Source: Zhongshania sp. R06B22 | GTDB taxonomy: Bacteria; Pseudomonadota; Gammaproteobacteria; Pseudomonadales; Spongiibacteraceae | NCBI RefSeq assembly: GCF_040892595.1 | Contig: NZ_JBFRYB010000001.1 | Coordinates: 62,001 to 126,000 of the forward strand | Direction: 5' to 3' | DNA: 64,000 nucleotides | In this document: positions 1-11,425 of the stretch, piece by piece | Layout: every line of letters begins with the position of its first letter | Position numbering within the stretch: the first letter of the stretch is position 1 | The notes under the pieces: model-generated | Databases searched by the model: none | The model's input: only the letters and a program-made list of their open reading frames with translations | What the model was told of the DNA's origin: nothing | Position numbers and translations under genes: made by a program

Positions 1-1
1 C

Positions 2-568
2 CTGACTGGCGACAGCACAGCCCTTAGTAATGGCATTGCCTTCGCCGACCGCTCAGGTGGCAATTTATCTCGGCCCCACTATCCAGATGGCATCGATGCC
101 AACGGCCCCGGCCCCTTTAGCAAACCCGCCGGCGAGTGGAGCCCATTTTCAACAGGCTTACAGCTAGACTTAAGTTTTAATGGCATCGTTAGCCACCTCC
201 TGTATTTGATGGGCGGCGCCCAAGATGTTGGCAAAAACTGCGTGGGTTTGGCGTTTGCGGGCACCACCAGTTCGGCGGCGCCGCGCCTTGCCAACGGCAT
301 TCAAATATTCCCCGGTAGTGTGCCCATCTATCGCGGCAATCAATTAATCGGCGGTATTGGTGTTTCAGGAGACGGCGTCGATCAAGACGATATGATTGCC
401 TTCTTAGGTTTACATCAGGCAGGTGAAATTCTCGGCACAGTAAACAATGCGCCAATAGCAATAAGGGCCGATCAACTAAGCCCTGGCGGCCAGCGCTTGC
501 GCTACATCAACTGTCCGCAAAGTCCTTTTAACAATAGTGATGAACAAAATGTTTGCGCTGGAAAATAA
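2..568 (+). CDS. GlcG/HbpS-like (DUF336) heme-binding-type protein, C-terminal part
   Basis: The gene is open at the left edge of the window and only its last 188 codons are present. The visible part ends with a stretch typical of the GlcG/HbpS (DUF336) fold: a Gly/Ala-rich segment, then PGSVPIYRG, then GGIGVSGDGVDQDD, followed by a helix. Members of this family bind heme or act as small-molecule sensors, so a heme-related role next to multiheme cytochromes is reasonable but inferred. The visible C-terminus has extra residues with two cysteines. Its stop codon lies inside the following barrel gene (29-nt overlap), which suggests translational coupling. The N-terminus, any signal peptide and the full domain order cannot be seen. 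Confidence 0.75.
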   Translation: MTGDSTALSNGIAFADRSGGNLSRPHYPDGIDANGPGPFSKPAGEWSPFSTGLQLDLSFNGIVSHLLYLMGGAQDVGKNCVGLAFAGTTSSAAPRLANGIQIFPGSVPIYRGNQLIGGIGVSGDGVDQDDMIAFLGLHQAGEILGTVNNAPIAIRADQLSPGGQRLRYINCPQSPFNNSDEQNVCAGK

Positions 569-2363
569 ACAAGCGCGAGCATCGCGCGCTTCATACTGGC
601 GGCTGTCATCCTGCCTAGGTGCCTTACTGTGGCTTGGGGCCAGCGCTCCGCTATTGGCGCAAACTGATACCGCGGAAAACCTGAGCGCCGTTGATTGCCC
701 TAGCGATGCCAGCATCACCAAGCGTCGGGTACCAGGCATGCCGATTAAGTGCGTAGCTAAAGAAGCCCGCAAGCCCAGCATTCCTGTTCCCAGCCTTAAG
801 GATTACAGCCCCGCGATAGCCATTCCCGATCGCTGGCGCATCGTTGAATCGCTGGGCTATGAAAACAACTGGTACGATCCCTATAATCGCAATACCTTAA
901 AAGCCGACACGCCAATTCACGATGATTGGTTTTTCAATTTAAGTATCATTGCCGATACTGTTTTTGAATATCGCGACGTCCCCACCCCCGTCGGTCTGCA
1001 ATCCAGCGCCAATGCCGGCGACTTAGATTTATACGGCGGCAGCAAACAATCGCAATTCATTGAAAATCTCGCCGTTGAATTAGTGTATTACAAAGGCGAT
1101 ACCGTGTTTCGCCCACCGGATTACGAATTTCGATTCACCCCAGTATTTAATTACAACGCCACCAAATTAGAAGAAATTCTCGGCGTGGATGTTAATCCTG
1201 CTCAAGGGAAAACTCGCTACCAGGATTTTGCCGGCGTACAAGCTGCGTTTGTCGATGTGCATTTACGCAATGTGTCTGACAATTACGACTTCGACAGTAT
1301 CCGCTTTGGCATTCAACCCTTTAACGCGGATTTCCGTGGTTTTCTATTTCAAGAAAATCAATTAGGTCTGCGACTTTTCGGCACGCGCAATAATAATATT
1401 ATTCAATACAATCTTGCGTGGTTTAGGCGTTTAGAAAAAGACACCAATAGCGGTTTAAACAATATTGGAGAAACGCCGCGCAACGATGATATTTTTGTCG
1501 CCAATCTTTATTGGCAAGACCTATTCGTCCTTGGCCACACTAGCCAATTTACAGTCTTGTATAACCGCAACCGAGAAAAGGATTTTTTCTTCGATAAAAA
1601 TGGCGTTATCCAGCGTCCCGCATCGATAGGGGCAGAGCGTCCACGGCAGTACGATGTGGTCTATTTTGGTATGAATAGCGACGGCCACCTTGGTCGCCTC
1701 AATATCACTAGCGCCTTTTACTACGCCCTTGGCAAGCAAGAGAATGCCCCACTCAGCGATACCAAGACTGATATTTCAGCCTACTTCGCAGCAGCGGAGC
1801 TGTCCTTTGACCAAGACTGGATACGCTGGCGGGCTTCGTTTTTATACGCTAGCGGTGACGATGATCCCTACGACGATATAGAAACCGGCTTCGACGCCAT
1901 TGTCGAAAACCCCCTGTTTGCCGGTGCCGACACCAGCTATTGGATACGCCAAGCGGTGCCGCTCATTGGCGGCGGCAAAGTGGCGCTGTCGAGTCGCAAT
2001 GGCGTCTTAAATAATTTGCGCTCTTCTAAAGAGCATGGCCAATCCAATTTCACCAACCCTGGCACCGTGCTACTTGGCATTGGCGCTGATTTTGATGTGC
2101 TACCTGAACTGCGTATCAGTCTTAATGCCAATCAACTTTGGTTCGACAATACCAGCAGTGTCGAGGTTGCTCGCCAGCAGGCAGGCATCTCAAAAGAGAT
2201 CGGCCAAGATTTATCTATCGCGACTATTTATCGTCCCTTTATGAGTCAAAACATTGTGCTGCGACTTTCCTATGCAGTGCTCTTACCCGGCGAAGCTTAT
2301 CAACAATTATATTCAGACCACTCTCAACAATCGGTGCTTTTTAATGCAATCTTCACCTACTAA
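540..2363 (+). CDS. Outer-membrane beta-barrel protein of a cytochrome operon
   Basis: A 607-residue secreted protein. A signal peptide with a hydrophobic core (SSCLGALLWLGASAPLLAQ) is followed by a short periplasmic segment with two cysteines 17 residues apart. The rest consists of alternating polar/hydrophobic strands rich in aromatic residues and Asn/Asp turns. It ends in FNAIFTY, an aromatic C-terminus as expected for outer-membrane insertion. ATG at 540 is chosen; a GTG lies three bases upstream, and neither has a clear Shine-Dalgarno, fitting translational coupling with the previous gene. It overlaps the next (decaheme) gene by 20 nt. By context it may be the porin sheath of a porin-cytochrome electron conduit. 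I do not recognise it as a canonical MtrB, and it lacks MtrB's N-terminal CxxC. Confidence 0.8.
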   Translation: MNKMFALENKQARASRASYWRLSSCLGALLWLGASAPLLAQTDTAENLSAVDCPSDASITKRRVPGMPIKCVAKEARKPSIPVPSLKDYSPAIAIPDRWRIVESLGYENNWYDPYNRNTLKADTPIHDDWFFNLSIIADTVFEYRDVPTPVGLQSSANAGDLDLYGGSKQSQFIENLAVELVYYKGDTVFRPPDYEFRFTPVFNYNATKLEEILGVDVNPAQGKTRYQDFAGVQAAFVDVHLRNVSDNYDFDSIRFGIQPFNADFRGFLFQENQLGLRLFGTRNNNIIQYNLAWFRRLEKDTNSGLNNIGETPRNDDIFVANLYWQDLFVLGHTSQFTVLYNRNREKDFFFDKNGVIQRPASIGAERPRQYDVVYFGMNSDGHLGRLNITSAFYYALGKQENAPLSDTKTDISAYFAAAELSFDQDWIRWRASFLYASGDDDPYDDIETGFDAIVENPLFAGADTSYWIRQAVPLIGGGKVALSSRNGVLNNLRSSKEHGQSNFTNPGTVLLGIGADFDVLPELRISLNANQLWFDNTSSVEVARQQAGISKEIGQDLSIATIYRPFMSQNIVLRLSYAVLLPGEAYQQLYSDHSQQSVLFNAIFTY

Positions 2364-5300
2364 AACATCGATCATTACGCTACTGGCTTTATGCTGTTTG
2401 GCATTTTGTCAGCAGGCAGTGGCCTCAGGTGGTGAGCATGAAGTTGCACGGGTCTATCACACCGCACCATCCGCACCTGCGTTTCAAACCCTCGTGGATG
2501 TAGAGCAAAAAAGCGCCGGTTGCGTGAGCTGTCACCGCCAAAGTGACAGCCATAATATGCATAACAACCCAGCGATTAATTTAGGGTGTGTGGACTGCCA
2601 TGGCGGCGACGCTAGCATTAGCTTCGCAAAAGACGCCCCTCTCGACCCGGCGCTAATGCTGCCACTACTGGAAAAAGCCCACGTCTTACCGCGCTTTCCA
2701 GACAGCTGGCACTGGCCCAACTCCGCCAACCCCGAGCGCACGTATACCTTGCTCAATAAAGAGGCCCCGGAATATATTCGCTTTGTGAATCCCGGCGACT
2801 TTCGGGTGGCGGGCGAAGCCTGCGGCGCCTGCCATCAAAAAATCATTGAAGCCTCTACCCGCAGCCTACATGGCACCGGCGCCATGTTCTGGGCAGCGGC
2901 AGCATACAATAACGGCATACTGCCCTATAAACGCTCCATTCTCGGTGAAGCCTATACCCGCGACGGCAAAGCCGCATCGATAAAGGCAGCCATAAAACCC
3001 ACTCCAGAAATGGCGGAGATGGGTATTCTCGACCAAATATTCCCCCTGCCGGCGTGGGAAACTGTCAAGCCTGGTGATGTATTCCGTGTCTTTGAGCGCG
3101 GTGGTCGCAATATTGTCAATCTGTTTCCGGAAACCGGTATACCCAACGCACTTGGGCAACTGCAACGCCTAGAAGAACCCGGCAGACCTGATATCAAACA
3201 ATCTAATCGCGGCCCCGGTACCGGCGGACGAATTTCTGTCCCACTTATCAATATGACCAAGACCCGCCTCAACGATCCGCTATTTTGGTTTATGGGCACC
3301 AATGACCAGCCCGGCGATTATCGCAGCTCAGGCTGCACTGGCTGCCATGTGGTCTATGCCAATGACCGCGAGCCATTACACTCAGGACCGTACGCCGCCT
3401 TTGGCAATACCGGCAAAAGCCAGAGTATTGATCCGACCATAGATAAGTCGGCCTCGGGCCACCCTATCGAGCATCGCTTCACCCGCGCGATCCCAACCAG
3501 TCAGTGTATGGTCTGCCATATGCATCAGCCCAATATGTTCGTTAATTCCTTTTTGGGTTACACCATGTGGGACTATGAATCCGACGCCCCGCATATGTGG
3601 CCCAAAGAACAGCAGTATCCCGACGCGGCCACCAAGCGCAAGATATTGGATCGCAACCCCGAGGGCGCCGCACCCAAGGGCAAATGGGCGGACGTCGATT
3701 TTCTTAAAGACGTATCCAAGCTCAATCCCGAATTAGACGACACCCAGTTCGCCGACTATCACGGTCACGGCTGGAATTTCCGCGCCGTATTTAAACGCGA
3801 TCGCGACGGTAATTTGCTCGACGGTGAAAATAATATTGTCAGTGATGAAGACCCCGAAAAATTCGATAAAGCGGTGCACATGCGCTCGATTCATGCCGAA
3901 GTCGGCATGCACTGCGTAGATTGTCATTTCAACCAAGACAACCACGGCAATGGCCATATGTATGGTGAGGTTGCGGCAGCGGTAGAAATAAGCTGTGTGG
4001 ATTGCCACGGCACGGCAAGCAAATATCCAGACTTACTGCCCTCTGGCCCCGCCAGCAATGCCAGCACCACGGATTTAAGCTTACTGCGTAATCCCGATGG
4101 TCGCCGCCGCTTTGAATGGGTAGATGGCAAGCTCATGCAGCGCTCCATGCTCAACCCCGATCTTGAGTGGACACTGTCTCTGGTTAAGGATTCGGTGAAT
4201 TCTCAACATGCTAGCTACAACCCCAAGGCCGCTCGCGCGAAGTTAATGTCTAAAGATCCCAAGACCCAACATTGGGGCAGCGATGTCGACCCAGATACGG
4301 CGGCGCATAATTTTGAAGAGGTGGAGTGCTACGCCTGCCATACTTCCTGGACAACCAGCTGCGGCGGCTGCCATCTGCCAATACAGGCAAATGAGAAATC
4401 TGAGCGTCACCATTTTGAGGGCGGTGAATCTCGCAACTTTGCCACCTACAATCCCCAGGTTGCTCGTGATCAGATCTTTATGCTGGGTAAACGCGCGCCC
4501 TACAAAGGTGGTAAATATGCGCCGGTGCGATCCTCATCAGCCTTAGTACTGTCGTCTACTAATGCCAACCGCGAACGCATATATGTGCAGCAAGCGCCAA
4601 TATCTGCCAGCGGGTTTAGCTCCCAAGCCTTTAATCCGCACTTTCCTCATACTGTGCGTAAAACCGAAACCAAAACCTGTAGCGACTGTCATTTGTCAGC
4701 AGAAAAAGACAATAACGCGATCATCGCCCAAACCTTAACCTTGGGTACTAAATTCATCGATTTCATTGGCCGCAATGTGTGGTTGGGTGAAGAGGATAAT
4801 ATTGAGGCTATTGCAGTAACCGAGTGGGACGAACCCCAAGCGGTCATCGGCAGCTATCTGCATCGCTATGCCTACCCAGACTTTTTTGCTGCTCACCAAG
4901 CCCAGAAACAGCAACTACAAACCTCACACGAACACAGCGCTGACCGCAGTCAGTGTCTGCAACTTCGCGGTGAGTATTTATTTGTTGCCGACGGCAAAGC
5001 AGGATTCAGAGTCTTAGATGTGGCCTCGGTTGAAAACAAGGGCATCTCGCAACGCTTAATCACCGCACCTTTTAGTGCGCTCGGTCACGATGCAAAAGTC
5101 GCCACTAAAAATGCCAGCTGTGTTGCGCTCCCCAGCATTCAGCCCATTGCCCCAGAACGTAATCAGGGCGACTTAATGCGAGTAGACAACAAGGAGCAAG
5201 CCTTTCACCCGCTTTATAATTACGCCTATATTACCGACACCGAAGAGGGTCTAATTGTCGTCGACGTCAACACTTTTGCCGACGGCAAACCCCGCAATAA

Positions 5301-6102
5301 CTTTATAAAAGCGGCGCTGCGCTGGCACGCCGGCGGAGCGTTAAAGGGAGCGCGTCATATTACAATTGGCGGTCACTATCTTTACATCATCGCCGATGCG
5401 GGCTTGCTGGTAATAGATATAAACTCGCCCTTAGAACCAAAGCTACTGCATACCATTGCACTCAATGACGGCCGCGCCTCCGCGCTGCAATTCCGCTATT
5501 TGTTTGTGACCGATGCCGACGGCATCAAACTGGTCGACGTCACCCTACCAGAGAAAGCCCATTTATTACCCGAGTTCACCCTGCCGCTTGCTGATGCCCA
5601 AAAAATCAGTCTGGCTAGGGGTTACGCCTACGTAGCAGCAGGACAGCAAGGTCTTGCCATCATAAACATCGAGCGCCCGGAAAAAATGCGTTTACTGCAA
5701 AGCTATAATGGCGAAGGTCACTTGCAAGACAGCAGAGATGTGGTCATTGGCACCACTAACGCGTCATTATTTGCCTATGTCGCTGATGCAAAAACCGGAC
5801 TGAACGTTATCCAACTAAGCTCACCAGACTTACAGCCAAAGTTTTACGGCTTTAACCCCGAACCAAAACCGCTTTGGATTGCCGGCAAGCAAACCGCCAG
5901 TCCCGCATTAAGTTTGTCGCGGGGATTGGCCCGAGATCGTGCGGTGGACGAAAGTGGCGGTCAGATCGCGGTATTTGGACGACGCGGTGCGCGGCCAATG
6001 AATTTACAAGAAATGCACAAACTGTATTTAGATAAAAATGGCGAACCTTGGTTTGTGGAAGATACACCGAGCAAATCAGGATCCGGAGCGAAGCATGAAT
6101 AA
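2344..6102 (+). CDS. Secreted decaheme cytochrome c fused to an LVIVD-repeat domain
   Basis: A 1252-residue protein starting at ATG 2344, directly before a Sec signal peptide (hydrophobic core IITLLALCCLAFC, cleavage after AVA). It holds ten CxxCH heme-attachment motifs, with first cysteines near residues 60, 82, 160, 331, 388, 524, 551, 662, 673 and 779. From about residue 870 to 1190 there are at least six repeats of the LVIVD type, such as YLFVADGKAGFRVLDV, YLYIIADAGLLVIDI and YAYVAAGQQGLAIINI, which probably fold as a beta-propeller. Heme motifs and repeats share one uninterrupted frame. It overlaps the barrel gene upstream by 20 nt and the pentaheme gene downstream by 8 nt. The protein probably carries electrons in the periplasm or across or outside the outer membrane; the propeller may bind a partner or substrate. 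The electron donor and acceptor are unknown. Confidence 0.9.
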   Translation: MQSSPTKTSIITLLALCCLAFCQQAVASGGEHEVARVYHTAPSAPAFQTLVDVEQKSAGCVSCHRQSDSHNMHNNPAINLGCVDCHGGDASISFAKDAPLDPALMLPLLEKAHVLPRFPDSWHWPNSANPERTYTLLNKEAPEYIRFVNPGDFRVAGEACGACHQKIIEASTRSLHGTGAMFWAAAAYNNGILPYKRSILGEAYTRDGKAASIKAAIKPTPEMAEMGILDQIFPLPAWETVKPGDVFRVFERGGRNIVNLFPETGIPNALGQLQRLEEPGRPDIKQSNRGPGTGGRISVPLINMTKTRLNDPLFWFMGTNDQPGDYRSSGCTGCHVVYANDREPLHSGPYAAFGNTGKSQSIDPTIDKSASGHPIEHRFTRAIPTSQCMVCHMHQPNMFVNSFLGYTMWDYESDAPHMWPKEQQYPDAATKRKILDRNPEGAAPKGKWADVDFLKDVSKLNPELDDTQFADYHGHGWNFRAVFKRDRDGNLLDGENNIVSDEDPEKFDKAVHMRSIHAEVGMHCVDCHFNQDNHGNGHMYGEVAAAVEISCVDCHGTASKYPDLLPSGPASNASTTDLSLLRNPDGRRRFEWVDGKLMQRSMLNPDLEWTLSLVKDSVNSQHASYNPKAARAKLMSKDPKTQHWGSDVDPDTAAHNFEEVECYACHTSWTTSCGGCHLPIQANEKSERHHFEGGESRNFATYNPQVARDQIFMLGKRAPYKGGKYAPVRSSSALVLSSTNANRERIYVQQAPISASGFSSQAFNPHFPHTVRKTETKTCSDCHLSAEKDNNAIIAQTLTLGTKFIDFIGRNVWLGEEDNIEAIAVTEWDEPQAVIGSYLHRYAYPDFFAAHQAQKQQLQTSHEHSADRSQCLQLRGEYLFVADGKAGFRVLDVASVENKGISQRLITAPFSALGHDAKVATKNASCVALPSIQPIAPERNQGDLMRVDNKEQAFHPLYNYAYITDTEEGLIVVDVNTFADGKPRNNFIKAALRWHAGGALKGARHITIGGHYLYIIADAGLLVIDINSPLEPKLLHTIALNDGRASALQFRYLFVTDADGIKLVDVTLPEKAHLLPEFTLPLADAQKISLARGYAYVAAGQQGLAIINIERPEKMRLLQSYNGEGHLQDSRDVVIGTTNASLFAYVADAKTGLNVIQLSSPDLQPKFYGFNPEPKPLWIAGKQTASPALSLSRGLARDRAVDESGGQIAVFGRRGARPMNLQEMHKLYLDKNGEPWFVEDTPSKSGSGAKHE

Positions 6103-7486
6103 AACTAAGCAGCTCAGGCTTAATCACAGCGCCCCGTGGCTAGGGCTTTGCTTACTTGCAATGCTTTGCTTTAAGCCAGGCTTGCTAAACGCGGCCGAGG
6201 TAAGCCCGAACGCCGGTGCAACTAACAGTACCGAGACTAGCACTGAGGCCATGCACTTGGGTGTAGCCAGTTGTGCAAACAGTGTATGTCACGGCCGAGC
6301 AGCGGCGGTTGAACACGGCAATGTATTACAGAATGAATATCGCACCTGGGCGAAGTACGATAGTCACTCACGCGCCTATGCCATTTTGAAAAACGCCGAC
6401 TCAAAACGCATCGCCGCCAATATGGGCATTAAAGACGCGAGCACGGCGGCGGAATGTTTAGCCTGCCACGCCGACACCACGCCAGCCAACTTGCAGGGCC
6501 CTAAGTTCCATATCTCGGATGGTATTGGCTGCGAAGTCTGTCACGGTGGCGCAGAAAACTGGATAGACTCCCATTACGGCGCTAATACCAGCTCAGCTGC
6601 AGACAATGCCATCGCTAGGCATCAAGCAAATTTAAAGAATGGCTTATCGCCAACCGAAGACCCTGCCTTTGCAGCCAAGTTATGTCAATCATGCCACCTT
6701 GGTAATACCAATCAACTCGCCACTCATGAAATGATGGCCGCTGGCCATCCTCGCCTACGATTTGAATTAGACACATGGCTGGCACTAATGCCACCCCACC
6801 ATAGCGACGATGCTGACTATCATCGCCGGGGAAAAAGTAGCTTGGCCACCACCCGCTGGCTAGAGGGCCGCATGCAGGCGGCGCAGGATTCACTCACGGT
6901 ACTAGAACAACACAGCATGCCACAGGGGCTATTTCCGGAATTGGCGGTATTCGACTGCCACTCCTGTCACCGCCCCATGGATACCAGCGTAAAACGCCCC
7001 CTTGCGGACAGGCAATTACTACCTGCAGGTGCAATTCGTATTAATGACAATGCGCTGCGTACGATTGCCACCTTGGTTTCGCTACGAAATGAAACCTTAG
7101 GACAGGAACTAACACTTGCGATTCGGCAGCTAAACCAATCAACCGTCCTCAGCAAACAAGCACTGCAAGCAAGCAGCCGTAAACTCATGACCTTAGTAGA
7201 AAAAGCGAGACAAAGCATTGATGATTCAGCTCTCAACGACAGTGAGCAACAGGCCATCACCATCGCTCTATTGAAGCAGGGTGCAAGTGGCGAGGTTCGA
7301 GACTACGCTGATGCAGAACAACTTTTCTTAGGATTACAAGTTCTCAGTTTTGACACAAAGAATCCGAAAAGCGGCGCGAAGCGCTATGATGAAATCTTTA
7401 CAGTTCTTAGCGATGAAAATAATTACACTCCACGTCGATTCAAAGCAGCAGTTCAAAAAACGCTAAAAGCTGCCACGGAGAACTAA
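6095..7486 (+). CDS. Multiheme cytochrome c554-like protein (five heme motifs)
   Basis: 463 residues; the start at ATG 6095 is preceded by GGAG and overlaps the decaheme gene by 8 nt. A signal peptide is followed by CANSVCH, an unusual CX4CH heme motif near residue 60. Four ordinary motifs follow: CLACH (121), CEVCH (146), CQSCH (197) and CHSCH (288). This spacing, together with AAGHPRLRFEL, is like the cytochrome c554 family. The last 150 residues are helical and lack heme motifs. It is probably a periplasmic electron carrier that passes electrons between the inner membrane pool and the decaheme protein. The physiological reaction cannot be deduced; hydroxylamine oxidation is not supported by any neighbour. 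Confidence 0.85.
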   Translation: MNKTKQLRLNHSAPWLGLCLLAMLCFKPGLLNAAEVSPNAGATNSTETSTEAMHLGVASCANSVCHGRAAAVEHGNVLQNEYRTWAKYDSHSRAYAILKNADSKRIAANMGIKDASTAAECLACHADTTPANLQGPKFHISDGIGCEVCHGGAENWIDSHYGANTSSAADNAIARHQANLKNGLSPTEDPAFAAKLCQSCHLGNTNQLATHEMMAAGHPRLRFELDTWLALMPPHHSDDADYHRRGKSSLATTRWLEGRMQAAQDSLTVLEQHSMPQGLFPELAVFDCHSCHRPMDTSVKRPLADRQLLPAGAIRINDNALRTIATLVSLRNETLGQELTLAIRQLNQSTVLSKQALQASSRKLMTLVEKARQSIDDSALNDSEQQAITIALLKQGASGEVRDYADAEQLFLGLQVLSFDTKNPKSGAKRYDEIFTVLSDENNYTPRRFKAAVQKTLKAATEN

Positions 7487-7489
7487 TGC

Positions 7490-8272
7490 ATGATTAGCAT
7501 TTTAGGCAAAAGTAATATCGCTCAACGCGCGACCAACGAGGATCGTTTCGTCGCCGACAGCAATTGGGGAATAGCACTGGTTGCCGATGGTATGGGTGGA
7601 CCCGCAGCGGGTGAAATTGCCGCCAGTATCGTCGCCAACCAAGTGACAGACCTACTAGACCAGGGAACTCCGCTCGCGGCTGCTGTGTATAGCGCGCATC
7701 AAGAAGTATTGCGCGCAGTAGAAGACGGACGTGGAAAAATCGGCATGGGCTCTACTGTCGTAGTAGCACACTTTAGTGGCCACCATTTTGAACTGGCATG
7801 GATTGGCGACAGTCGCGCCTATTTGTGGAATGGTGAACTACGTCAAATTAGCCGCGATCATTCGCAAGTTGAAGCCATGATGAGTCGCGGTGAAATAAGC
7901 TATAGCGAAGCCACAAGCCACCCCAATAAAAATATCATTACCCGTGCTATAGGCCATGGTAAATTTAACGAGCACGATATTCCTCTTATTAAAGGCGCGC
8001 TCTTTCACGGAGAAAAATTATTACTTTGCAGTGACGGTTTATATGATGCCGTAGCTGCCTGCGACATTGCGCGAGTAATGAACTCCGCGATTTCAAGTGA
8101 GCAGCAGCTCGACCAGTTGCTGGCAATTGCCCTGGCAAATAACGGCGCAGACAACATCACCGCGGTACTGGTTGATAGTGATGTGATACCTCAAGAAAAT
8201 GAGATCATACCGACACTACCGCTGGTGGCCATCGCGCGCATCGACGGTTTCACCGAACATTTCACAGCCTAA
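7490..8272 (+). CDS. PP2C/PPM-family serine/threonine protein phosphatase
   Basis: 260 residues with all the metal-binding motifs of bacterial Stp-type PPM phosphatases: TNEDRF near the N-terminus, VADGMGGPAAGE, GMGSTVVV, WIGDSRAYLW, ISRDHSQV, LLCSDGLYD and ADNITAVLV. It is about the usual length for the single-domain family, with no membrane segment. It starts 3 nt after the cytochrome stop and has CGGAG upstream, so it is probably cotranscribed with the cytochromes. It would remove phosphate from Ser/Thr residues in the cytoplasm, with the neighbouring FHA protein as a likely binding partner. No Ser/Thr kinase gene is visible in the window. Confidence 0.92.
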   Translation: MISILGKSNIAQRATNEDRFVADSNWGIALVADGMGGPAAGEIAASIVANQVTDLLDQGTPLAAAVYSAHQEVLRAVEDGRGKIGMGSTVVVAHFSGHHFELAWIGDSRAYLWNGELRQISRDHSQVEAMMSRGEISYSEATSHPNKNIITRAIGHGKFNEHDIPLIKGALFHGEKLLLCSDGLYDAVAACDIARVMNSAISSEQQLDQLLAIALANNGADNITAVLVDSDVIPQENEIIPTLPLVAIARIDGFTEHFTA

Positions 8273-8320: not shown

Positions 8321-9244
8321 ATGGCAAGCTTTAAACTACACGACACTGCCAGCGCCATTGACTATTTAATAACGGCGACAGAAACGTCGATTGGCCGCAG
8401 TCCAGAAAGTGACATTCGGCTGCTTAGCTCGAGTGTGTCTCGAAATCATGGCGTCCTAAAAATCAAAGACGACAATTTGAGCTTTGAAGACTTCGGCTCA
8501 AGTAACGGTACATACGTTAACACCATCAAAGTAGTGGGCGAGACGGCACTTAAAAACGGTGATGCTCTGCAGGTTGGGGACTTTGAATTAAAGGTTCTCC
8601 TAGAGACAGATGACGACGCAACCACCTTTAATAGCGACGATGACGCCACTCAAATTGGGGCCTACAGTCCACCGGAAATTGCACAGACGTCACCAGCAGC
8701 TGCGCCGGCTACGACCGCAGCGGAAGCAGACATCCCCGCAATGTGGTCGGAGAACGCCGGACTTGAGCAAGCATCTGGCACGATCTTTTTCTCTGAAGAC
8801 GCCGCCTCTGAAGCGAGTAAAAACTACCGCGATGGCAATTTAAATATTGCGCCAATAGGCGATACACCTCGTTTGATTGGCTTAAACCTCAGTATTCAAG
8901 GCGTCATCTATCAACTGGATACCGGCGTCACCAGTGTCTGGAAAATCGGTCGAGATCAACAACATGTCGATCTCTGGGTCTCTGAGTCAAGCGTCTCCGG
9001 GCTGCACGCCCAGTTAATTAACGAGGGACAGCGCTGGAAAGTCGTCAACTGGATGTCTACCAACGGCACCTTTGTTAACGAACTAAAGGGCTTATCCACC
9101 TACCTTAAAAATGGCGACATTATTCGTATGGGCATTGCCGAATTTGCCTTCGAGCTCCCGGCAGAGTCGCAAAAATCAGCGCCGAAGAGCACGGTAGAAA
9201 GTCCGAAGAAGAAAGGATTTTTTGCGCGCTTGTTTGGTAAATAG
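8321..9244 (+). CDS. Protein with two FHA domains
   Basis: 307 residues. FHA domain 1 spans about residues 15-90 and shows SIGRSPESDIRL, SVSRNHG and SSNGTYVN. FHA domain 2 spans about residues 190-285 and shows WKIGRDQQHVDLWV, SVSGLHA and STNGTFVN. The linker is acidic and rich in Ala/Thr, with a DDATTFNSDDDATQIG segment whose threonines may be phosphorylation sites. The tail is basic (KKKGFFARLFGK). FHA domains bind phosphothreonine. AAAGGAAG lies upstream of the ATG. It follows the phosphatase by 48 nt, and the pair probably forms a phospho-switch; what it controls is unknown, though the operon position suggests the cytochrome system or another secretion-linked process. Confidence 0.9.
   Translation: MASFKLHDTASAIDYLITATETSIGRSPESDIRLLSSSVSRNHGVLKIKDDNLSFEDFGSSNGTYVNTIKVVGETALKNGDALQVGDFELKVLLETDDDATTFNSDDDATQIGAYSPPEIAQTSPAAAPATTAAEADIPAMWSENAGLEQASGTIFFSEDAASEASKNYRDGNLNIAPIGDTPRLIGLNLSIQGVIYQLDTGVTSVWKIGRDQQHVDLWVSESSVSGLHAQLINEGQRWKVVNWMSTNGTFVNELKGLSTYLKNGDIIRMGIAEFAFELPAESQKSAPKSTVESPKKKGFFARLFGK

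Positions 9245-9349: not shown

Positions 9350-11425
<2,076 letters not shown>

Follow-up and report, generated by a model that had tools for sequence, protein, structure and literature searches.

A conserved operon of Pseudomonadota encoding a decaheme cytochrome fused to an LVIVD beta-propeller next to a predicted AlgE-type outer-membrane barrel

We analysed an operon of Zhongshania sp. R06B22 (Gammaproteobacteria, Spongiibacteraceae) that extends into a 64,000-nucleotide (nt) stretch of contig NZ_JBFRYB010000001.1 (positions 62,001 to 126,000; the window) and encodes a decaheme c-type cytochrome and an LVIVD beta-propeller on a single chain, adjoining the gene of an outer-membrane barrel. 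As judged from sequence, the gene set is real, conserved and a new variant of porin–cytochrome clusters. As to mechanism, we infer that the operon probably encodes a chain moving electrons through the cell envelope, with the decaheme–propeller fusion at the outer-membrane end, a reading that we favour with reservation. An earlier sequence-only reading of the window had described the barrel, the ten-CXXCH fusion and a third cytochrome with overlaps of 20 and 8 nt; the open reading frames confirm their coordinates, motif numbers and overlaps. The extent given there is corrected here, since the operon starts about 6.7 kb upstream of the window.

The fusion protein, the barrel and the third cytochrome

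The fusion gene (2344..6102, forward strand, as are the other operon genes in the window) starts with an in-frame ATG at 2344 and encodes 1,252 amino acids. The protein has a hydrophobic N-terminal segment (residues 9–27) and ten CXXCH motifs, at residues 60, 82, 160, 331, 388, 524, 551, 662, 673 and 779 of the heme region (2521..4692); several CXXCH motifs on a protein with an export-type N-terminus class it, by sequence, as a multiheme c-type cytochrome. Motifs were counted in homologues aligned over at least 1150 residues for the fusion, 380 for the FHA-decaheme cytochrome, 200 for the pentaheme-type cytochrome and 240 for the membrane protein described below, with shorter matches dropped and duplicates, defined by identity over 100 core residues, removed. 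The ten-motif pattern is beyond chance, because 96 of 96 distinct full-length relatives of the fusion keep all ten. Across 50 aligned fusion rows, 15 histidines outside the CXXCH motifs reach at least 96% conservation, and 13 of them lie inside the heme region, a number sufficient for bis-histidine ligation. One relative (L034:4475-8268, genome G174) has the fusion spread over two frames, one with seven CXXCH and the other with three CXXCH and the propeller; either the gene is truly split or the sequence contains an error.

The propeller falls in the LVIVD family PF08309 (E 6.6e-21; 73.8 bits versus a gathering cut-off of 20.2). The sequence-only reading had counted at least six LVIVD repeats. 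Pfam alone is insufficient for that number, as it marks four stretches at a loose limit of E 1 and one at a limit of 0.01, but the strand list of the AlphaFold2 model reads as seven blades. The fold predictions were made from 50 and 51 sequences, with the fusion trimmed to residues 42–1240 of 1252. The mean predicted local distance difference test score (pLDDT) of the fusion model was 69.8; in the predicted seven-bladed propeller (residues 806–1196; 4759..5931) ten-residue means were 70–97, except for two blocks at 50 and 58. The propeller aligns to 6nau_A (VIA-align Z 29.8, 294 residues aligned, 2.6 Å), to 1l0q_A, a YVTN propeller of an archaeal surface layer (Z 29.5), and to 7bid, a design titled seven-bladed (Z 28.5); the Foldseek list includes eight-bladed designs too. 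These matches are unspecific, as all 970 of 970 aligned chains had Z of at least 5, and both lists were dominated by the propeller, so that the heme part was scarcely probed. A profile of the fusion found no sequence relative among solved structures at E 0.1. The heme region gives a weak local match to ExtM (NF040943; E 2.8e-17, 62.3 bits versus a cut-off of 800), and we rejected kinship to ExtM, because the likeness is local and the family cut-off is far from reached.

The barrel gene (540..2363; 607 amino acids from the ATG at 540, with GTG at 537 as the other possible start) overlaps the fusion gene by 20 nt (2344–2363). Its model (608 amino acids, mean pLDDT 79.4) has 18 long predicted strands. 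Foldseek places AlgE nearest among solved folds (E 2.9e-17), and alignment to AlgE 5d5d (Z 28.9, 364 residues, 3.0 Å, 14% identity) identifies the predicted fold as AlgE-type; OprD/Occ channels rank after AlgE. No Pfam family matched the barrel, and its profile found no sequence match among solved structures at E 1.

The third cytochrome (6095..7486; 463 amino acids) overlaps the fusion gene by 8 nt (6095–6102), has a signal-peptide-like N-terminus and is of cytochrome c554 type (PF13435, E 5.2e-10). The five heme motifs ascribed to it earlier are present, but one of them is CX4CH (CANSVCH) and not CXXCH; this pattern of four CXXCH and one CX4CH is found in 71 of 74 distinct homologues. We refer to it as the pentaheme-type cytochrome.

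Organization and distribution of the operon

The upstream genes were located on a contig stretch, L003, in which a window position equals the L003 coordinate minus 10,000. The operon opens with a reductase of 880 amino acids (L003:3257-5899; Pyr_redox, two cyclic-nucleotide-binding and 4Fe-4S (Fer4_11) domains by Pfam), which is predicted to bind flavin adenine dinucleotide (FAD). It is followed by a membrane protein of 296 amino acids (L003:5961-6851), a decaheme cytochrome of 573 amino acids with an FHA domain, one hydrophobic segment (residues 141–159) and ten CXXCH (FHA-decaheme; L003:6856-8577), and an HbpS-type lipoprotein of 663 amino acids (L003:8577-10568; PF03928, E 1.4e-21) with a lipobox-like LVAC at residues 16–19. 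The lipoprotein gene starts 1424 nt upstream of the window, ends within it (1..568, forward strand) and overlaps the barrel frame by 29 nt, counted from the ATG at 540. After the barrel, the fusion and the pentaheme-type cytochrome come a PP2C-type phosphatase (7490..8272; Pfam), which begins 3 nt past the cytochrome gene, and a protein with two FHA domains (8321..9244; Pfam), probably the last gene, so that the operon probably ends at 9244. From the membrane protein to the phosphatase, adjoining genes overlap or lie at most 4 nt apart.

The membrane protein of the window genome has an SGXXG motif and two WX3HX13H motifs, which characterize the inner-membrane proteins of PCC3 and PCC4 clusters and are read as two b-heme sites in the available text of He et al. 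2017 (PMC5566968). Every one of 71 distinct homologues keeps both WX3HX13H motifs, and 70 of the 71 keep SGXXG. Simple hydropathy gave three or four hydrophobic segments depending on the threshold; five transmembrane helices are given for the PCC4 protein.

A scan of named genomes confirmed at least 579 stretches with the fusion, the best 80 of which were analysed as loci. These 80 include near copies of each other and lean to close relatives, because the best-matching ones were kept; every title among them is of a Pseudomonadota lineage. The gene set occurs in many bacteria of water and soil. The fusion was present in 3 of 18 genomes of the genus, 15 of 293 of the order (the window's own included), 11 of 398 of a phylum sample and 52 of 149 sampled genomes of one other family. 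A FastTree tree of 83 fusion rows (the window copy twice) mostly follows class, with exceptions that include metagenome-assembled genomes (MAGs) of Nitrosomonas and Arenimonas. We take this pattern to mean that the family is old and patchily distributed. MAG titles at three loci (L075, L088 and L096), naming Klebsiella pneumoniae or Bordetella parapertussis, are possibly wrong, judging by the titles and the fusion tree only.

The barrel is present in 78 of the 80 named loci, at most 600 bp upstream of the fusion in 76; the two loci lacking it (L064 and L077) have only 121 and 384 bp of sequence ahead of the match. Among the 40 loci with at least 9 kb on each side, 39 have the reductase, 39 the membrane protein, 39 the FHA-decaheme cytochrome, 38 the HbpS-type lipoprotein, 31 the pentaheme-type cytochrome (counted on either strand, at any position in the locus), 13 the FHA protein and 12 the PP2C phosphatase. 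In the 398-genome sample the barrel was found in 12 genomes, that is, all 11 with the fusion, which it always adjoins, and one more (G430); the membrane protein was found in 21, including all 12 with the barrel. The fused architecture and the barrel thus occur together across Pseudomonadota, usually with an inner-membrane electron module, a co-occurrence that the sequence-only reading had proposed to look for.

The gene order varies. In several betaproteobacterial loci (L100, L090, L088 and others) the reductase gene is downstream of the pentaheme gene and not at the head of the operon, and in L173 and L175 (alphaproteobacterial-type, by the tree position of relatives) the pentaheme gene is ahead of the HbpS gene and not past the fusion. 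Genes for cytochrome c maturation, of DsbE/CcmG, NrfF/CcmH and CcmI type, come directly after the operon in one MAG with a Salinisphaeraceae title (L035:18771-21012).

The inner module also occurs apart from the outer one. In 9 of the 21 genomes with the membrane protein, neither barrel nor fusion was matched. Nine loci lacking the outer module match the profiles of the reductase, the membrane protein and the FHA-decaheme cytochrome, and three of them that of the pentaheme-type cytochrome; the fusion, barrel and HbpS profiles found no match there at E 1e-3. The inner module thus appears to be common to systems of PCC3/PCC4 type, with a different outer module (loci are called PCC3- or PCC4-like here from gene content or heme number). 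L163, L164 and L165 hold the inner module with no outer one found, the last being cut by a contig end. In L163 (6350-12153) and L164 (3052-8143) the reductase and the membrane protein are in one frame of 1118–1123 amino acids that adjoins the FHA-decaheme gene, and L163 has chemotaxis receptor genes further along. In L171 a ten-heme neighbour is present.

Several genes flanking the operon were rejected as members. On the opposite strand, head-to-head with it (L003:2-2491), lie a DUF3570 gene, a gene for a TlpA-like thioredoxin (both by Pfam) and a reading frame judged by eye to resemble an ApbE-type flavin mononucleotide (FMN) transferase; homologues of the ApbE- and DUF3570-like genes are found in 0 of 80 relatives, and of the TlpA-like gene in one of 80, where it is a gene of DsbE/CcmG type. 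Downstream (9377-11425) is a large FMN/FAD oxidoreductase of old yellow enzyme type with a pyridine nucleotide domain, which has a homologue in one of 80 relatives. No Ser/Thr kinase was recognized near the PP2C and FHA genes when the N-terminal residues of open frames were read by eye in portions of six loci, and no family search was aimed at kinases.

Proposed electron path and alternative explanations

In the path that we propose, the cytoplasmic reductase would trade electrons with NAD(P)H, and the membrane protein, with its two likely b-heme sites, would move them over the inner membrane. The FHA-anchored decaheme and the soluble pentaheme-type cytochrome would relay them through the periplasm to an outer-membrane end made of the fusion, the AlgE-type barrel and the HbpS-type lipoprotein, where they would pass to, or come from, a partner outside the cell. 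Most likely, the propeller would dock the heme part onto the barrel or the lipoprotein, or bind the outside partner. We infer each of the order of electron flow, the place of the fusion at the outer membrane, the outward direction and the role of the propeller. Regulation through phosphorylation or cyclic nucleotides is suggested by the FHA, PP2C and cyclic-nucleotide domains. The membrane protein with PCC3/PCC4 motifs and the conserved linkage partly support the porin–cytochrome conduit of the sequence-only reading; a wire through the barrel is not supported, as the barrel is predicted to be AlgE/OprD-like and not an MtrB-type sheath.

Several observations weigh against the proposed path. The predicted barrel fold counts most heavily against a simple heme wire through this protein and weakens the MtrB comparison: the barrel is predicted to be an 18-stranded one of AlgE type, not MtrB type, and is probably too narrow for an MtrA-like wire. 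The N-terminus of the fusion is signal-peptide-like without a clear lipobox, and the protein may, for that reason, be periplasmic. The heme parts of the fusion were modelled poorly, with long stretches of pLDDT below 50. The linkage also has gaps. G430 has a barrel without a detected fusion, although its contig ends 333 nt later with a tail that is not clearly fusion-like; in 3 of the 11 fusion genomes (G485, G612 and G656) the membrane protein is elsewhere in the genome, L069 lacks the inner module and L022 has none within the 18 kb examined, which together speak against a strict operon; and 9 of the 40 well-flanked loci have no recognizable pentaheme gene. It is possible, though doubtful, that the operon represents a separate class of conduit that does without an MtrA-like wire, in which an 18-stranded AlgE-type barrel, a heme-binding HbpS-type lipoprotein and a decaheme protein with a seven-bladed propeller form the outer end, switching is by FHA, PP2C and cyclic-nucleotide domains, and the hosts are mainly heterotrophs.

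The strongest alternative is a reductase system of the periplasm that has a substrate channel of its own: the barrel would admit a particular small compound, which the propeller-decaheme protein, fed by both other cytochromes, would reduce. We think this unlikely but a serious rival. AlgE and OprD/Occ channels as the nearest folds of the barrel, and the absence of a clear lipobox, would fit such a role. Propellers occur in heme and metal enzymes too, and the matches of this one include hydrazine synthase (5c2v_B, Z 25.4), nitrous oxide reductase (5i5j_B, Z 25.2) and cytochrome cd1. In Geobacter, the ext cluster, which includes a porin and the ExtM that the heme region of the fusion weakly resembles, is tied to selenite and tellurite reduction in the available text of PMC5877670. 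On the other hand, the propeller matches are unspecific, Pfam matched none of the scanned operon proteins to a catalytic domain known from periplasmic reductases, and the 13 conserved extra histidines hint at wiring and not at an open active-site heme, short of proof.

The same chain could also run inwards and supply NAD(P) or the quinone pool with electrons from an outside donor such as a cathode, Fe(II) or Mn(II). The operon occurs in named isolates of Steroidobacter, Parahaliea, Pseudoteredinibacter, Limnobacter and Duganella, which are mainly heterotrophs. Outward flow is favoured because most named isolates are heterotrophic and the flavoprotein is present, which points to NAD(P)H oxidation, and we regard an inward path as improbable. 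In its favour, electron uptake was proposed for PCC3/PCC4, which share the inner-membrane protein motifs (He et al., PMC5566968, available text); all nine genes of the operon occur in L042, a MAG titled Haliea sp. Biocath_Gamma_022, the biocathode origin being read from the name; and a ten-heme 'Forkhead-associated protein', possibly akin to the FHA-decaheme cytochrome, is listed for 27 of 87 iron-oxidising Gallionellaceae in the available text of PMC10734462. That the barrel and cytochromes are mere genetic neighbours, the barrel exporting or importing something unrelated to electron transfer, is very improbable: the best fold match, AlgE, exports alginate, and L163 and L164 hold the inner module without barrel or fusion, but 12 of 12 barrel genomes of the 398-genome sample have the inner-membrane protein, the barrel adjoins the fusion in 11 of the 12, and the genes in the window overlap.

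If the electron path is true, it would be a conserved route from cytoplasmic NAD(P)H to the cell surface in species, probably numbering in the hundreds, of Alpha-, Beta- and Gammaproteobacteria that are seldom considered electroactive, a breadth that rests on the at least 579 stretches and the 52 of 149 genomes of one family. It would also give a defined example of a conduit without an MtrB-type sheath, possibly under phospho-control, and a role for a propeller that shares its chain with hemes.

Comparison with known systems

As in MtrCAB of Shewanella, the barrel gene adjoins multiheme cytochrome genes. We rejected membership of MtrCAB, because no family matches and the strands are too few. 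For the barrel, an NCBIfam scan with E up to 1 has DESULF_POR1 as its single entry (17.4 of 250 bits) and not MtrB; the DmsE/MtrA family (TIGR03508) gives 32.7 bits for the FHA-decaheme and 15.9 for the pentaheme-type cytochrome, of 192.2 needed, and does not list the fusion; MtrC-domain matches of the operon proteins are far under the cut-off. MtrB has 26 strands in its solved structure. The available text of PMC5877670 gives 28 predicted segments for MtrB, in contrast to the 18 predicted strands here.

The Geobacter extHIJKLMNOPQS cluster (PMC5877670) resembles the operon in its porin, its 12-, 10-, 5- and 4-heme cytochromes and cytochrome b, and in the local likeness of ExtM to the fusion heme region. 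It differs in a Rieske-type Fe-S protein in place of the flavoprotein, and its available description mentions no propeller. Multiheme cytochromes with propeller (NHL) genes are found in DFE_0448-0465 of Desulfovibrio ferrophilus (PMC9769857); according to the available text, each propeller there has a gene to itself and a porin is not apparent, on which grounds we rejected the DFE clusters as propeller-bearing counterparts. In the MHCR cluster of Thiomicrorhabdus ISEC-1 and 'Ca. Tenderia electrophaga' (PMC9751133, available text), multiheme cytochromes, one barrel and propeller proteins are clustered as here, but the propellers are three separate six-bladed proteins and the multiheme cytochromes have 3–11 hemes each.

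Closer likenesses are found in the clusters of He et al. 2017 (PMC5566968). PCC4, as described in the available text, combines a porin and several multiheme cytochromes with an inner-membrane protein that carries SGXXG and two WX3HX13H and with a neighbouring Fe-S protein (pfam13247); its cytochromes have 4, 5 and 10 hemes, unlike the 10 (FHA), 10 (propeller-fused) and 4+1 found here. Three loci that are PCC4-like by gene content (L166, L168 and L172) contain homologues of the pentaheme-type cytochrome, part of the reductase and the membrane protein; the barrel profile found no match in them at E 1e-3, and their porin was not identified. PCC3 (He et al. 2017; PMC10734462, available text) shares a related inner-membrane protein and has more hemes per cytochrome: L167 and L169, found through the related membrane protein and PCC3-like by heme number, have 21- and 24-motif proteins and no homologue of the fusion or barrel (profiles, E 1e-3). 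The main text of PMC5566968 does not use the words propeller, NHL, FHA, cyclic nucleotide or LVIVD. A literature search outside which lay most subscription papers and all supplements returned no paper joining 'LVIVD' with 'multiheme cytochrome' and none joining 'FHA domain' with 'multiheme cytochrome'.

The closest published counterpart is the 'first group' of porin–cytochrome clusters in cave MAGs from Sterkfontein (PMC13264449, 2026), in which a decaheme cytochrome gene of 4–5 kbp adjoins a porin of about 20 strands, with a ferredoxin-NADP reductase nearby in 7 of 11 according to the available text; the authors regard most cluster-bearing MAGs as heterotrophs. From this description, the group very probably belongs to the same family, and the 'new type' of the sequence-only reading is to be qualified accordingly: related clusters were described in 2017, and this very cluster was very probably seen in 2026, the propeller being unmentioned in both main texts (PMC13264449 does not use the words LVIVD or propeller). 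The architecture is unusual, widespread and well conserved, and the cluster has probably already been glimpsed in print.

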